Shown here: one piece after another, positions 1 through 7,550 of the stretch
Numbering within the stretch: position 1 is the stretch's first letter
Layout: every line of letters starts with the position of its first letter
Made by a program: the position numbers and the translations under genes
DNA from: Peptococcaceae bacterium BRH_c23
GTDB taxonomy: Bacteria; Bacillota_B; Desulfitobacteriia; Desulfitobacteriales; Desulfitobacteriaceae
Assembly: GCA_000961805.1 (NCBI GenBank)
Contig: LADV01000089.1
Span: forward strand, 1 to 7,550
Length of the DNA: 7,550 bases
Direction: 5' to 3'
Notes under the pieces: model-generated
The model's input: only the letters and a program-made list of their open reading frames with translations
Databases searched by the model: none
Told to the model about the DNA's origin: nothing

Positions 1-881
1 TATTTGGGATTATTCTCAGTTACTTTACAAGCCGTCGACTCGTCGCTCCTCTCAAACGATTAACGAAAGCTGCTGATCGTATTGGTCATGGGCACCTTGA
101 CGAACGCGTTTCCGTTCGCTCCAAAGACGAGGTAGGGCAACTAGCGAACGCTTTTAATATGATGGCCGACAATTTGGATCGCCAAGAAACCCTCCGCAAA
201 CAGTTTACCGCCGATATCGCCCACGAACTGCGCACTCCCTTGACCTCGATCAAAAGCTATATTGAAGCCTTTCAAGATAACGTCCTTCCAGCTAATCAAG
301 AAAATCTCTCCTCCATTCATGAGGAGATTGACCGATTAGTAGACTTGTCCAGCGATCTAAAAGACTTAAATATAGCAGAAATCGGTGCTTTAAAGCTAAT
401 CCTCGAACCTGTGGACTTAAAGCTTCTTCTTGAAAAAATCATTCGCAGCCTTTATCCCCTCATCCAGGAAAAGGAATTAACTCTAAATTGGAACGTCTCG
501 GAAGAATCCGTGACTACGTCCGGAGACGAGCGCCTTCTGACCCGGCTCTTCTACAATCTGGTGCATAATGCTTATCGGTACTCTAACGCAGGCGGTCAGG
601 TTACCGTCGTGCTTACAGAAACACCGGATTTTGCTGAAATTAAGATTACAAACACAGGTATAGGCATCTCGGAAGACGACCTTCCTTTAATATTCGAGCG
701 TTTTTACCGAGCTGACAAATCTCGAACCCGTGAGACAGGGGGAACTGGAATTGGTCTGGCGCTGGTCCGCCAAATTATAGACCTCCATCAAGGCACGATC
801 ACCGTACAGAGTGAAGTCGGGCATGAGACTGAATTCATCGTCCAGCTTCCTAAAGAGATAAAAGTAGTGGCTGAGGATTAG
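1..881 (+). CDS. Sensor histidine kinase, BaeS-like, 3' part (5' end outside window)
   Basis: The open frame enters from the left edge (first full codon at base 3) and gives 292 residues before the stop. In order: the end of a transmembrane helix (FGIILSYF); a HAMP linker (about residues 10-60, including PLKRLTKAADRIG and DEVGQLANAFN); a HisKA dimerisation domain with H-box DIAHELRTPLTSIK, whose phospho-accepting His is coded at 222-224; and a HATPase_c domain with N-box (LFYNLVHNAYRYS), G1 (NTGIGI), F-box (FERFYR) and G2 (GTGIGLALV). All catalytic boxes are intact, so this part should be functional. The ATG at 159 is internal: HAMP sequence continues upstream in the same frame. Such kinases autophosphorylate on His and pass phosphate to an OmpR/PhoB-type regulator, usually encoded just upstream, here outside the window. 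The ligand cannot be read because the sensor domain is missing. Confidence 0.95.
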   Translation, partial: FGIILSYFTSRRLVAPLKRLTKAADRIGHGHLDERVSVRSKDEVGQLANAFNMMADNLDRQETLRKQFTADIAHELRTPLTSIKSYIEAFQDNVLPANQENLSSIHEEIDRLVDLSSDLKDLNIAEIGALKLILEPVDLKLLLEKIIRSLYPLIQEKELTLNWNVSEESVTTSGDERLLTRLFYNLVHNAYRYSNAGGQVTVVLTETPDFAEIKITNTGIGISEDDLPLIFERFYRADKSRTRETGGTGIGLALVRQIIDLHQGTITVQSEVGHETEFIVQLPKEIKVVAED

Positions 882-1497: not shown

Positions 1498-1506
1498 TCA
1501 CCTCCT
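1498..1506 (-). promoter_or_regulatory. Isolated strong Shine-Dalgarno in the leader, STAB-SD-like
   Basis: The minus strand reads AGGAGGTGA, a near-ideal match to the 16S anti-Shine-Dalgarno. It lies about 90 nt before the Met-rich start codon and only about 10 nt from the predicted 5' end. No usable start codon follows at normal spacing. The nearest candidate is a CTG, and its frame is not conserved between the two copies. Known 5' stabiliser Shine-Dalgarno sequences (for example in Bacillus cry3A) bind 30S subunits and shield mRNA from 5' exonuclease. A similar role here is inference. Confidence 0.5.
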
Positions 1507-1521: not shown

Positions 1522-1550
1522 TTCGTACACCTGTTTAATTATCAAGGGGT
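1522..1550 (-). promoter_or_regulatory. SigI-like promoter of Met-rich gene 1
   Basis: On the minus strand ACCCCT (1550-1545) is followed by 19 nt and then CGAA (1525-1522). This resembles the SigI promoter pattern described in Bacillus subtilis (ACCCCC-type -35, CGAA -10). The same arrangement lies before copy 2, and a variant lies before sigI. A weak SigA reading (TTGATA, 17 nt, ATACTT) overlaps it and cannot be excluded. Confidence 0.6.
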
Positions 1551-1771: not shown

Positions 1772-2035
1772 TTAACTGTTTATGACTTTATAACCAGCAT
1801 CTTCTACGGCCTTAATAAGTAATGAACGTTCAGTCGTTCCTAAAACTACTGCTTGTTTACTAGCTAAATCGACTTCTGCTTGAGTAACACCAGGTACATT
1901 TGATAACGCTTTTTCAACTGAACTCTTGCAGTGACCACAAGTCATTCCCTCAATTTTTAATACAGTACCATCTTGTGGATTCAACGCATTCCCTCCAGAA
2001 TGACCTTTATTCGAATGTCCACAGCAACCACTCAT
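1772..2035 (-). CDS. copZ: CopZ-type copper metallochaperone (HMA domain) with Cys/His-rich N-terminus
   Basis: The product has 87 residues. Residues about 23-87 form a heavy-metal-associated domain with the Cu(I)-binding loop GMTCGHC and the usual pattern: SSVEKAL helix, VPGV turn, AEVDL strand, AVEDAGY helix. CopZ proteins carry Cu(I) in the cytosol to P1B-type ATPases or copper regulators. The first 20 residues are unusual: MSGCCGHSNKGHSGG adds two adjacent Cys and two His, probably an extra metal site. The start is ATG 2035, with AAGGAGAG upstream at good spacing. No copper ATPase or CsoR-type regulator is adjacent in this window, so the partner must lie elsewhere. The substrate is inferred from the family; zinc or mercury relatives share the fold. 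Confidence 0.88.
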   Translation of the reverse strand: MSGCCGHSNKGHSGGNALNPQDGTVLKIEGMTCGHCKSSVEKALSNVPGVTQAEVDLASKQAVVLGTTERSLLIKAVEDAGYKVINS

Positions 2036-3516: not shown

Positions 3517-4410
3517 ATGGTGGTCTCGCCAGATCTCCCCAGCTTACCCTTTATTTTGAGAAATGGAGTAAAATACTTTGAGTTAATTGCCCAACCCGTA
3601 CAACGGGAGATTCTTCCTGGACTCTACATTAATGCTTGGGGATATAATGGTAGTACACCCGGACCGACTATCCATGTTTATCCAGGGGACTTTGTCAATA
3701 TTCGTGTTTTCAACAGGCTTCCCGAATCAACTAGCGTGCACTGGCACGGTTTAGATGTTCCAAACGTCATGGATGGTGCCCCTGGTATGACAACTAGCCC
3801 TGAGATTGGACCCGGAAACTATTTTGACTATCAATTTCAGATTAATAATCCACCCGGTACTCACATGTATCACGCTCATTTGGATGCGCTGCGTCAGGAA
3901 ATGATGGGCCTACAAGGCGGCCTGATTATTTTGGAACCAGACCAACCAAGCTGCGTTCATCGTGATTACTTCCTCATGTTCCAGGAGTTCCATGTCGACA
4001 AACAGCCCATGCGAGGATATACACCCGGTGTCTATGATCTCGATCCTTACAATATGGACTATAATTTCTTTACAATTAATGGGCGATGTTTTCCAGACAC
4101 CACGCCACTAGAAGTCTGTATTGGTGAGAATGTTCGCATTCGTTTGAGTAATGCCATGGAAACCGCCCACCCAATCCATCTCCACGGCCATCAATTCTAT
4201 GTAACCGCTTCTGATGGCAACACGATTCCTCTTGGTCAACGACTTTTGCGAAGCAATATATTAGTTGCTTCTGGAGATACTTGGGATATTGAGTTTTCGG
4301 CTAATAATCCCGGTCAGTGGCCTTTTCACTGCCATATACCGCACCATATGACCAATAACATGTCTAAATCGGGAGGCGGGATGATGACAACGGTTCTTTA
4401 TAAACAGTGA
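3517..4410 (+). CDS. Two-domain multicopper oxidase (laccase-like)
   Basis: The product has 297 residues, about the length of a two-domain oxidase rather than the roughly 500 of three-domain laccases. Two cupredoxin domains carry all four copper motifs: HWHG (75-78), HMYHAH (116-121), HPIHLHGH (218-225) and HCHIPHH plus four residues and Met (271-282). Cys272, His218, His277 and Met282 fit the type 1 copper ligands; the His pairs fit the type 2/3 cluster. Domain 1 has Met117 instead of a Cys, so type 1 copper sits only in domain 2, as in small laccases, which act as trimers. These enzymes couple one-electron substrate oxidation, including Cu(I), to O2 reduction. The N-terminus has no signal peptide, and a stop closes the frame just upstream of ATG 3517, so a cytosolic, spore-coat or otherwise exported location is open. 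The substrate is unknown. Confidence 0.93.
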   Translation: MVVSPDLPSLPFILRNGVKYFELIAQPVQREILPGLYINAWGYNGSTPGPTIHVYPGDFVNIRVFNRLPESTSVHWHGLDVPNVMDGAPGMTTSPEIGPGNYFDYQFQINNPPGTHMYHAHLDALRQEMMGLQGGLIILEPDQPSCVHRDYFLMFQEFHVDKQPMRGYTPGVYDLDPYNMDYNFFTINGRCFPDTTPLEVCIGENVRIRLSNAMETAHPIHLHGHQFYVTASDGNTIPLGQRLLRSNILVASGDTWDIEFSANNPGQWPFHCHIPHHMTNNMSKSGGGMMTTVLYKQ

Positions 4411-4841: not shown

Positions 4842-5840
4842 TTACTTTGCGTCAATAGTATTTAGAATCGGTCCCTGCCAGTTTTCAAACCAAACCTGAC
4901 CTGTGTATCCATTAACATCAAGTTCCGCGTAATCCTTACCATCTTTCTGAACCATAAATTCATAGTAACCAGGAGCCAGTTCCGGTTTTCCGATTGAATA
5001 TCCTTGGCCCAATTTGGATACGAACTCTTGAGCACTCTTCGTGGCCTGTTCTTCGCTGACTGTAACCGCCCCGTTATTTCCCCAATTCATATGTCCATAT
5101 TTTGTATTCCACATAATATTTGGACCCATGTCAGTTATGATCTGTCCGCCATTCTTGTAAACCATAACTTCATAGGCTTTAGCCCCTGTCGCTCCCTCTT
5201 TGAGCTCTACTTCATATCCATTTGCAAATTCATAAAGTTCGGCCACAACGACGTCTTGGTTAAATTTTTGAATATATGCCTTAGCAATGGCTAGTGCTTG
5301 ATCAGATGTGGTGACTTCGCCATTTGTGAGGTCTACACCTAAGCTTTTTGCATCATAGCCGCCTCCCATCATGCCATAACCGCTACCGCCCATCATACCG
5401 TAACCGCTACCGCCCATCATACCGTAACCGCTACCGCCCATCATACCGTAACCGCCACTGTATCCATTAGCACCGAAACCTCCCATCATGCCATAACCAC
5501 CACCATATCCATTAGCACCGAAACCTCCCATCATCCCATAGCCTCCACCATTCCCATTAGTACCGAAGCCTCCCATCATTCCATAGCCTCCACCATATCC
5601 GTTGGGTCCTGGAGTGGTAAGCACATCAGAGTTATCATTTGGGGAAGACAGTGCTAAAGTTATAGGTTGAGGTGTCCCAAGCTGACTACTCTGTGTCGTT
5701 GTTTCAACTGTCTGTGTGAATCCAAGAGTTTGTCCCAACGATTTCACGGCACCTGAACCAGAGGTTAGGGCGAAAGCCGTACCCGAAAGCGCTATCACGC
5801 TTGCAATTGAGAGTCCTACAATCCATTTTGTCTTGTTCAT
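4842..5840 (-). CDS. Secreted YGMMGG-repeat protein with PepSY-like C-terminal domains
   Basis: The start is ATG 5840: AAAGGAGGA lies 7 nt before it. An in-frame TTG at 5864 would place that same Shine-Dalgarno inside the gene. The product has 332 residues. A signal peptide ends near TAFA (residue 24). Residues about 80-161 are Gly/Tyr/Met-rich with seven YGMMGG motifs: 15-residue units (GGGYGMMGGFGANGY type), then three 8-residue units (YGMMGGSG). The C-terminal half holds two PepSY-like modules (about 177-235 and 260-325), each with a Ser-x-(D/E)-(Q/E)-A helix start (TTSDQALAIA, VSEEQATKSA) followed by paired strands (YEVELKEG/YEVMVYKN and YEFMVQKDG/YAELDVNG). Paired Met could bind Cu(I), but that is inference. 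PepSY assignment is by eye. Confidence 0.8.
   Translation of the reverse strand: MNKTKWIVGLSIASVIALSGTAFALTSGSGAVKSLGQTLGFTQTVETTTQSSQLGTPQPITLALSSPNDNSDVLTTPGPNGYGGGYGMMGGFGTNGNGGGYGMMGGFGANGYGGGYGMMGGFGANGYSGGYGMMGGSGYGMMGGSGYGMMGGSGYGMMGGGYDAKSLGVDLTNGEVTTSDQALAIAKAYIQKFNQDVVVAELYEFANGYEVELKEGATGAKAYEVMVYKNGGQIITDMGPNIMWNTKYGHMNWGNNGAVTVSEEQATKSAQEFVSKLGQGYSIGKPELAPGYYEFMVQKDGKDYAELDVNGYTGQVWFENWQGPILNTIDAK
5377..5448. repeat. Three identical 24-bp tandem repeats
   Basis: Units 5377-5400, 5401-5424 and 5425-5448 are exact copies encoding an 8-residue YGMMGGSG-type unit. Exact identity at synonymous positions suggests recent expansion or ongoing copy-number change. Confidence 0.95.
5461..5595. 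repeat. Three 45-bp tandem repeats
   Basis: Units start at 5461, 5506 and 5551, each encoding a 15-residue Gly/Tyr/Met unit. They differ at several bases, so they are older than the neighbouring 24-bp array. A partial fourth unit follows from 5596. Confidence 0.9.
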
Positions 5841-5903
5841 TTCTTTTTCCTCCTTTAATTTCAACCAAGAATGTTTTCACAGCAACCCTGTCTTTATGTC
5901 TTA

Positions 5904-5973: not shown

Positions 5974-6039
5974 ATAAAACTCATAACAAAACTGTGAATT
6001 TCCCATTAAATAAGGGACTCTGATTGATTCAGAATCCCT
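5974..6039. repeat. Dispersed hairpin repeat, copy B
   Basis: This aligns with 2272-2338. The hairpin 6013-6023/6029-6039 pairs over 11 bp as minus-strand RNA with one G-U wobble. No gene ends just upstream of it on the minus strand, so it looks like a terminator left from a lost or moved gene. Confidence 0.55.
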
Positions 6040-6198
6040 CTAAGCAATAAACTGATTCGAACTCCACAGTGCTGAAGTCCAATTGAGTCGATAACGTGCG
6101 CCATCCCCTCGAAAATCCTAATCCGAACCGTTCTCTTCTGACGTTAATGGCTCAATTTTATGACAATTGCAAAAAAATCAAGTATAACAACCTTCTTT

Positions 6199-6697: not shown

Positions 6698-7129
6698 TTA
6701 TCTTCCCATACTTCCCATGGATCCCATCATATTGTTGCCACTTGATTTTTGGGCTGGCTGTTGAGAAGCGTTTGAATTGTTCGGTTTGTTCGTTCCAGCC
6801 ATTCCTTGCGTGTGTTGGGAATTAATCATCTGGTCATTCATTTGAGTGTTCATAGGCATGTTTTGCATTTGATCATTCATGGACACGTTCGAACTCCTCA
6901 TTTGATCGTAGACATCTGTCTTAGATGGAACTGTTTGATCCGGCTGAGTGGTTTCTACCTGCTCAACTTCCGTGCTTGTAATATCATTGTTGTCCATATA
7001 AGCCTGTGCGTTCGAAGCTTTTGGCTGCATGTCCGTGGTATTTTTGCCGATTGTAGTAGCGTTCACGATCCCTGCCAATCCAAGTACCATAACTATTGAT
7101 AGTGAAACCATTAAAACTCTCTTCTTCAT
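6698..7129 (-). CDS. Secreted Met/Gln/Asn-rich protein, copy 2 (next to sigI)
   Basis: The product has 143 residues and is a close paralogue of the protein at 932-1408: near-identical signal peptide (cleavage near NA-TT), Glu/Thr/Asp-rich middle and Met-rich end. It has one QMQNMPMNT unit where copy 1 has three, and an extra GSM triplet in its tail (GSMGSMGR). It has no Cys and about 14 Met after the signal. Copper or silver binding outside the membrane is plausible from the Met spacing but unproven, and no named family is recognised. It is divergent from sigI across a 236-bp intergenic region, with its own SigI-like promoter and terminator. This complete context, unlike that of copy 1, suggests it is the parental locus. 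Confidence 0.8.
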   Translation of the reverse strand: MKKRVLMVSLSIVMVLGLAGIVNATTIGKNTTDMQPKASNAQAYMDNNDITSTEVEQVETTQPDQTVPSKTDVYDQMRSSNVSMNDQMQNMPMNTQMNDQMINSQHTQGMAGTNKPNNSNASQQPAQKSSGNNMMGSMGSMGR

Positions 7130-7242: not shown

Positions 7243-7271
7243 TTCGTACACCTGTTTAATTATCGAGGGGT
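7243..7271 (-). promoter_or_regulatory. SigI-like promoter of Met-rich gene 2
   Basis: On the minus strand ACCCCT (7271-7266), 19 nt, CGAA (7246-7243). Compared with copy 1 the spacer differs at one base, which weakens the alternative SigA -35 (TCGATA instead of TTGATA) but leaves the SigI elements intact. Confidence 0.65.
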
Positions 7272-7310
7272 AGGTTGAGAAATTTTCTTGACAAACTTTT
7301 TTCACTGGGT

Positions 7311-7340
7311 ACCCCCTTAAATTTCTGATACATATACGAA
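7311..7340 (+). promoter_or_regulatory. SigI-like promoter of sigI (autoregulation)
   Basis: ACCCCC (7311-7316), 20 nt, CGAA (7337-7340), followed 25 nt later by the start codon. This closely matches the SigI consensus known from Bacillus subtilis, where sigI is autoregulated. Confidence 0.7.
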
Positions 7341-7365: not shown

Positions 7366-7550
7366 GTGCCAGAATTAACGATTCAGCAAACTTTACTACT
7401 AGCCAAAGAAGGAAACGAACTTATTAGAGAAGAGTTTATACAAAATCACAAGCCATTTATCATGAAAATCTGCTTCAACATCTGTAAACGCTATCTCACC
7501 TGGGGACATGATGACGAGCTAAGCATCGCTCTAGTCGCTTTTAATGAAGC
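7366..7550 (+). CDS. sigI: RNA polymerase sigma factor SigI, N-terminal part (runs off the window)
   Basis: GTG 7366 follows GGAGGGG by 5 nt. The 61 visible residues read through to the edge without a stop. They carry the N-terminal SigI pattern: an AKEGNELIREEFI helix, NHKPFIMKI, ICKRYLTWGHDDELSI and LVAFNEA, corresponding to sigma region 2 of the SigI family. SigI directs core RNA polymerase to ACCCCC/CGAA promoters. In Clostridia it is usually held by a membrane anti-sigma factor, RsgI, encoded just downstream, which would lie outside the window. The motif before this gene and the two Met-rich genes fits an autoregulated regulon. The identification is strong despite truncation. Confidence 0.88.
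   Translation, partial: MPELTIQQTLLLAKEGNELIREEFIQNHKPFIMKICFNICKRYLTWGHDDELSIALVAFNE

Follow-up and report, generated by a model that had tools for sequence, protein, structure and literature searches.

The window, by which we mean the whole stretch of 7,550 nucleotides analysed here, ends inside a sigI gene. Facing away from this gene lies one for a secreted protein rich in methionine (Met-rich), and a paralogue of the latter is found towards the other end; Table 1 collects these genes, their neighbours and the sites discussed below. The Met-rich protein next to sigI has 12% Met, no Cys and a single His, and the Met content of the two Met-rich proteins is 12-13%. The window's Met-rich protein is identical to that of the Desulfosporosinus MAG UBA8487; the DNA of the two loci is not letter-identical. 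The rsgI gene lies beyond the window, and the gene order in the closely related locus L001 is sigI then rsgI. By eye, the segment at ~1570-1650 is a near-copy of the kinase 3' end and terminator at 815-905: the paralogous Met-rich gene is thus flanked by two copies of the kinase 3' end, which suggests a local duplication. A plasmid or phage origin of the window was considered and rejected, with no plasmid match and no relative among viral contigs.

Table 1. Genes and sites of the window, in order of position, with the basis of each assignment.
Feature	Position	Strand	Basis or remark
Histidine kinase, 3' part	3..881	+	Pfam; relatives with Met-rich sensor loop
Paralogous secreted Met-rich protein, 158 aa	932..1408	-	Translation, alignment; no Pfam family
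Start-less AGGAGGTGA, leader of the paralogue	1498..1506	-	Alignment
SigI-type promoter of the paralogous Met-rich gene, spacer 19, without sigI alongside	1522..1550	-	Motif search and alignment
CopZ-like HMA protein, neighbour	1772..2035	-	PF00403
Multicopper oxidase, neighbour	3517..4410	+	PF07731/PF07732
PepSY protein with YGMMGG repeats, neighbour	4842..5864	-	Pfam, translation
Secreted Met-rich protein, 143 aa	6698..7129	-	Apparent signal peptide and low-complexity chain; no Pfam family
Start-less AGGAGGTGA, Met-rich leader, 15 nt past CGAA	7219..7227	-	Candidate mRNA-stabilising Shine-Dalgarno
SigI-type promoter of the Met-rich gene, ACCCCT-N19-CGAA	7243..7271	-	Motif search; ACCCC and CGAA invariant in 12/12 intact orthologues/paralogues
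SigI-type promoter of sigI, ACCCCC-N20-CGAA	7311..7340	+	Motif search and related loci
sigI start, 61 aa inside the window	7366..7550	+	NCBIfam NF006175, E 9e-24; full gene and rsgI seen in L001

The initial annotation had noticed that, between the two divergent genes, both strands carry ACCCC(C/T) followed by CGAA. Both sites are confirmed, at the coordinates of Table 1, and this part of the annotation is stronger than it was stated: the window contains three matches to ACCCCY-N18..22-CGAA, against 0.10 expected, and none of 200 shuffles of the window reached three. The third site (1522-1550) and the paralogous gene (932-1408) were absent from that annotation. A chance motif is rejected on these shuffles, together with the shuffled and resampled upstream regions of class B described below. 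The Bacillales consensus given in PMC4711584 is ACCCCC--AA-15N-CGAA----T. Both divergent promoters have its T at five bases past CGAA; the promoter of the Met-rich gene departs from it by a T at the sixth base and by a spacer that opens with CGAT instead of --AA, and the sigI promoter by a spacer that is longer by one base. When one mismatch is permitted, with the CG of the box kept, the search adds a plus-strand site at 6034-6061 with no gene directly downstream, a site at 7011-7039 that is internal to the Met-rich gene, the sigI site again, displaced by one base, and nothing further. No site with at most one mismatch was found upstream of the PepSY gene or of the window's NlpC/P60 gene.

The survey covered 45 genomes of the family, in which a match at E <= 1e-5 was taken as a member of the Met-rich family, and a match above 419 bits as a SigI of class A. 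The Met-rich gene is present in 11 of the 12 genomes that have a class A SigI and in none of the 33 others (Fisher 1.2e-9, uncorrected for kinship). The twelfth genome, G017, has a class A SigI-RsgI pair with copper genes (L084), yet no Met-rich gene was detected in it.

Relatives of the Met-rich protein led to ten genome loci; the upstream regions of nine of these were aligned with that of the L001 paralogue (L001b), the region of L008 being shown apart. This alignment has a conserved block around ACCTACCCC(T/C)...CGAATA, which is also retained without sigI alongside (L001b, L010) or with sigI moved or decayed (L002-L004). The initial annotation had suggested looking for the motif ahead of orthologues in related genomes, and it is indeed there: in the family search, the strict box ACCCC-N20/21-CGAA lies upstream of 12/12 intact Met-rich genes. 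It is also kept by genes whose sigI is not directly adjacent (the paralogue L001b, L010, and the genes of G003 and G024). Over the 12 intact genes, mean column identity reaches 1.00 in both ACCCC and CGAA; it is 0.82 across the spacer, 0.61 in the upstream flank and 0.63 in the part of the leader past the Shine-Dalgarno. The Met-rich gene of G009, which reaches a contig end, is the same gene as that in L010, where the box is present, and a shortened thirteenth copy (G007, L027) also carries it.

Several loci show apparent rearrangements around these boxes. A Met-rich copy of G007 with an inverted first part has kept the -35 and not the -10 element; at L008 ~9740-10013 (D. sp. HMP52), the start of the Met-rich gene and its -35 element are in opposite orientations, through either a true inversion or a misassembly. 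A relict sigI promoter with no adjoining sigI is seen on the minus strand at L002:9788-9817 and L003:9788-9817; at L002 the next gene, GGDEF-like by eye, may now be SigI-controlled. From L143:2233 onwards (the same site as in L128), a sigI-type promoter is followed by a reading frame that fuses the first SigI residues to RsgI, apparently through an internal deletion. In G024 (L083), sigI and the Met-rich gene are ~13 kb apart, and both have retained their promoters.

The SigI of L001 aligns to C. thermocellum SigI1 (8i23) over residues 8-220, with E 2e-34, and to SigI6 (8i24) over residues 9-220. The residues of SigI6 that read CGAA are described in PMC10575876, and their positions were transferred from it by spacing. 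The corresponding pattern [RK]RL[IV]DxxR, loosened from an earlier regular expression, is found in 16/16 class A loci, which represent 15 distinct genes (L033 and L081 are one gene), in 18/20 class B loci and in 0/10 class C loci. Judging by these sequences, class A SigI would keep the residues thought to read CGAA. A SigI-consensus promoter also stands before the window sigI and before the sigI of every class A locus that includes upstream DNA. The proposal of the initial annotation that the Met-rich gene is a direct target of SigI is thus well supported, as a predicted control, by the conserved footprint, by the co-occurrence of 11/12 against 0/33, and by the residues of SigI.

How far this predicted control extends was estimated by scanning eight related genomes, the window's own genome being outside the eight, for ACCCCYN18-19ACGAA; this strict form leaves out TCGAA and GCGAA sites, such as those of both G018 partners. 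The scan yields 59 sites, of which, by our own tally, 14 stand before sigI, 3 are remnants of sigI promoters, and 13 stand before secreted partners; the rest are 6 other intergenic sites and 23 within open reading frames at least 120 aa long. Outside such reading frames, 30 of 36 strict sites belong to modules of SigI and a secreted partner, where the partner site at L126, which overlaps an over-long sigI reading, is counted as a partner. The 5.6 Mb genome of D. lacus (G003) contains four strict sites: that of sigI, that of the Met-rich gene, and two within reading frames. The reversed pattern, used as a control, has 14-20 matches per genome, against 3-12 for the true one. Since the reversed pattern is the commoner of the two, the motif is rare rather than enriched genome-wide, and the case rests on where the sites are located. 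With these sites, SigI in Desulfosporosinus and close relatives is predicted to act mainly on its own operon and on the secreted Met-rich protein.

A second conserved element lies in the leader: AGGAGGTGA is found 14-15 nt past CGAA in 12/12 leaders of intact class A Met-rich genes, and a start codon at usable distance behind it in only 3 of the 12. A conserved leader peptide behind the element is rejected on this count. The shortened G007 copy has AGGTGG in its place. Among 23 class B leaders, 14 contain G(G/A)GGTG(A/G) no more than 45 nt from the box. Stabilising start-less Shine-Dalgarno sequences (STAB-SD) are known from Bacillus, and by analogy AGGAGGTGA looks like such a sequence at the predicted 5' end of the mRNA. 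If the -11 numbering given in PMC10575876 holds, the element would begin near +5 of the predicted transcript.

We now turn to class B, defined as SigI matches of 290-336 bits, which occur in 13 of the 45 genomes. Twenty class B regions were retrieved, one of them (L073) holding a more distant match of 213 bits. A SigI-type site precedes sigI in 16 of the 20, with none at L066, L068, L073 and L076. Where the divergent neighbour is a low-complexity secreted protein, it has its own site at L063, L069, L070, L077 and L078, and a site with one mismatch at L076; for neighbours of other kinds, such as a ZIP-like transporter, other small secreted proteins, a CsoR-family protein and an FtsW-like one, the nearest 600 nt show no minus-strand site. 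Matches to the partner alignment A3 occur in 14 of the 45 genomes. Twelve of these have a class B SigI, which the other two, G009 and G018, lack; G019 has a class B SigI with a partner seen in L078 that is below threshold.

Of the 32 partner matches, 30 have a locus, and five of these that do not start at the protein N-terminus were set aside (L177, L178, L181, L182, L183). Within 420 nt of the 25 class B partner genes, the box is strict in 17 cases, has one mismatch in 7 and two in 1 (L167): 24/25 thus have a box with at most one mismatch, which lies 245-279 nt upstream of the gene at L175 and L173. Once L169, whose sequence is the same as that of L161, is dropped, there are 24 distinct upstream regions. 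The strict box is present in 16 of them, against a shuffle mean of 0.04 and maximum of 1, with an opposite-strand site in 3; the box with at most one mismatch is present in 23, against a resampled mean of 0.95 and maximum of 3. By sequence comparison, the Met-rich/sigI pair belongs to a larger group of paralogous SigI-RsgI modules with secreted low-complexity partners.

Three features of individual class B loci are worth recording. At L069:1-1540, a module whose tail and partner are richer in Met adjoins the Met-loop two-component system also found with class A, although its genome (G036) has no class A SigI. At L061 and L071, sigI is divergent to a ZIP-like transporter, as seen by eye, and at L059 and L075, to a CsoR-family repressor (PF02583 in L059). 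Such neighbours are hinting at other metals for class B.

The anti-sigma side of the module was examined through RsgI. The domains RsgI_N and RsgI_M are present in 3/3 class A RsgI scanned, whose gene adjoins sigI and which have one transmembrane helix; no further Pfam domain, such as a carbohydrate-active C-terminal one, was found in these three. In one AlphaFold model of a class A RsgI, the periplasmic domain matches RsgI of B. subtilis and C. thermocellum (8t9n, E 5e-7; 8hdj), at 16-20% identity across ten RsgI entries. Residues 258-338 of the model have a pLDDT under 50, and the tail is probably disordered. Among 61 class A homologues, tails contain 6.4-16.7% Met, with a median of 10.4, in 60/60 that could be scored, and 48/61 have MM among their last eight residues, often as HxMM.

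The Asn-Pro autocleavage dipeptide does not occur in every RsgI. The loop in question was located by alignment to 8hdj chain B, the second residue of which pairs with the serine after the loop, and we take the aligned position to be the Asn-Pro autocleavage point. No NP dipeptide was found in the 51 scorable loops of the 61 class A homologues, and DINPS is kept in 9/10 class C loci. The absence of the dipeptide would mean that class A RsgI signals without the known autocleavage. PMC12203970 presents C. thermocellum RsgI8 as a protein without the self-cleavage motif and with an unidentified initial signal; class A RsgI may resemble it.

The composition of the RsgI tails can be compared with that of the secreted partners. 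In the paired set, Met content is 7-15% in class A tails and 8-14% in their partners, and 0-7% and 0-6%, respectively, in class B; across both classes, tail and partner Met correlate with rho 0.76. The following tests are post hoc and exploratory, on sequences that are kin. For class B, they use the 7 pairs with an assignable partner, those with a tail cut by a contig end or with no adjacent partner being omitted; for G014 one partner was picked from several, and the partner of G005-C23 is ~2.8 kb away. In class B, the summed own-pair composition distance ranks within the lowest 2 out of 5040 permutations (p 2/5040), the own partner being ranked first in 4/7. For the tail ends, taken as the last 15, 25, 40 and 60 residues, p is 0.009, 0.0004, 0.0008 and 0.0002. 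The effect is weak in the 10 class A pairs, with p 0.028 and the own partner ranked first in only 2/10. Within class B, the correlations are not significant for Met (rho 0.43, p 0.34) or for His (rho 0.68, p 0.09). A Trp-ended partner is found in 6/6 genomes with a Trp-ended tail, against 1/6 others (p 0.015), with end labels assigned by hand and G028 omitted. The likeness in composition between RsgI tails and secreted partners is best treated as a lead.

The initial annotation had also supposed that the Met-rich protein might bind copper. A gene for CsoR, CopA, CopZ or a multicopper oxidase lies within 5 kb in 9/14 class A loci (tblastn, E <= 1e-8); none was found in the available DNA of the other five (L005, L006, L009, L081, L082), nor at the three class A loci with sigI only (L079, L080, L085). 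G001 and G018 each contribute two loci to this count, which accepts a CopA at 39% identity (L010); P-type ATPases of 25-29% near L061, L066 and L071 were excluded. For class B, the same search gives 0/20, and 2-3/20 when CsoR-family proteins are counted: the small protein beside sigI in L059, missed by tblastn, is of this family, L075 has a like protein, and L062 has, by eye, pieces of one. The contrast between classes is weaker because the L059 neighbour is of the CsoR family; ignoring kinship, its Fisher p ranges from 4e-5 to 0.07 depending on whether class B is counted as 0, 2 or 3/20 and on whether the three sigI-only loci or L010 are included, and it compares flanks of up to 10 kb in class A with flanks of ~4.5 kb or less in class B.

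A Met-repeat sensor loop is present in 7 kinases recovered from class A genomes (L001, L006, L007, L081, L084, L146, L153), the kinase of L082 having been missed by the search pattern; the class B kinase of L069 shares this loop, and those of L059 and L063 do not. The spacing of Met in the two Met-rich proteins was compared with shuffles: p is 0.17 and 0.12 for MxxM, 0.04 and 0.12 for MxxxM, and MxM is below the shuffled mean. On these figures, copper motifs of the form Met-x-x-Met are not convincing, the spacing being hardly above what composition gives. The idea of copper binding has circumstantial support from the neighbouring genes, the kinase loops and the Met-rich RsgI tails, and hardly any from the Met-Met spacing; a copper role of the SigI/Met-rich pair is plausible.

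Taken as a whole, the likely explanation is a small, largely self-contained module of sigma and anti-sigma factors, in which SigI drives its own operon and the secreted Met-rich gene. RsgI, a membrane protein, would hold SigI; SigI would act directly on its own operon, on the divergent Met-rich gene and on the orphan copy. The sensor would be the Met-rich, often HxMM-ended and probably disordered tail of RsgI, and the signal, copper in the envelope or another thiophilic metal. The Met-rich protein would buffer the metal and, resembling the tail, shut the response off, and the start-less Shine-Dalgarno near the 5' end of the mRNA would make the transcript long-lived.

A different reading, possible and yet well short of likely, keeps the promoters SigI-dependent and takes cell-envelope stress as the signal: the Met-rich chain would be a wall-associated filler, and the copper neighbours coincidental. 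SigI of B. subtilis works in cell wall homeostasis, NlpC/P60 genes lie near several modules, and class B modules are arranged in the same way, most of them with no close relative of a class A copper gene in the vicinity. However, this reading must set aside the copper genes near 9/14 class A loci, the high Met content shared by class A tails and partners, and the Met-loop kinase that adjoins the Met-richest class B pair, that of G036; the window's NlpC/P60 gene, moreover, is without an upstream SigI site. It is improbable that a different sigma factor, either a SigI of another class or an ECF factor, reads the ACCCC...CGAA boxes, with their nearness to sigI being incidental. Several genomes have 2-5 SigI paralogues, and the class A promoters of sigI and of the Met-rich gene are dissimilar beyond the core; but in G002, G003, G004, G009 and G024 the distant class C is, besides class A, the only SigI match at E <= 1e-30, and the presence of the Met-rich gene follows class A, not class B or C. 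A chance motif preserved by shared ancestry, in a region conserved for another cause (a binding site, for example, or the divergent arrangement), is very improbable: the spacer is fairly conserved too and the genomes are kin, but ACCCC and CGAA are invariant in paralogues and relocated copies, and a different secreted family elsewhere has the box (16/24 strict, 23/24 with at most one mismatch).

The preferred explanation can be extended to a whole family of switches, a step that we regard as doubtful: the disordered tail would mimic the secreted product and bind the same ligand, and the exported product, by stripping the tail of it, would close the loop. Equally tentative are the ligands that this extension would assign, namely copper for the Met-rich class, and other metals or ligands for the His-, Trp/Asn- and Thr/Pro-rich classes.

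If the preferred explanation is true, SigI/RsgI is more than a heat, wall or polysaccharide system: it would also be a modular route to a dedicated secreted low-complexity protein, and in sulphate reducers one such module may be geared to metal stress. The paralogous pairs of tail and product would then allow one to ask how a low-complexity tail senses, and if RsgI is able to signal without autocleavage. No description of a SigI module of this kind was found among the titles and opening lines of abstracts listed from the openly licensed PMC literature, a corpus that subscription papers are mostly outside of.

The module resembles SigI/RsgI of B. subtilis and other Bacillales in the SigI family itself, in the adjoining gene with its RsgI_N, transmembrane and RsgI_M succession, and in the ACCCCC...CGAA-type promoter of the operon. 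The extracellular tail of Bacillales RsgI is disordered, as the class A tail would be. The differences are a divergent secreted Met-rich target, a Met-rich tail, the lack of Asn-Pro in the scorable class A homologues, a small predicted regulon, and several paralogous modules in some genomes. The Met-rich protein, for its part, can be likened, by description only, to PcoE, SilE, CopM and CrdA, which are secreted Met- or His-rich copper proteins: it is also small, exported, Met-rich and near copper genes. Unlike them, it has no Pfam match, and its predicted control is by a sigma factor instead of a copper two-component system.

The biomass-sensing SigI/RsgI systems of C. thermocellum are like the modules described here in that a genome has several pairs and every pair has targets of its own. 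In C. thermocellum, the sensor part of RsgI resembles what the targets carry, namely carbohydrate modules. Here, in contrast, the tails are of low complexity, and not carbohydrate-binding modules or glycoside hydrolases, and the partners are low-complexity secreted chains instead of cellulosome enzymes. The nearest C. thermocellum case without a self-cleavage motif is RsgI8 (PMC12203970).
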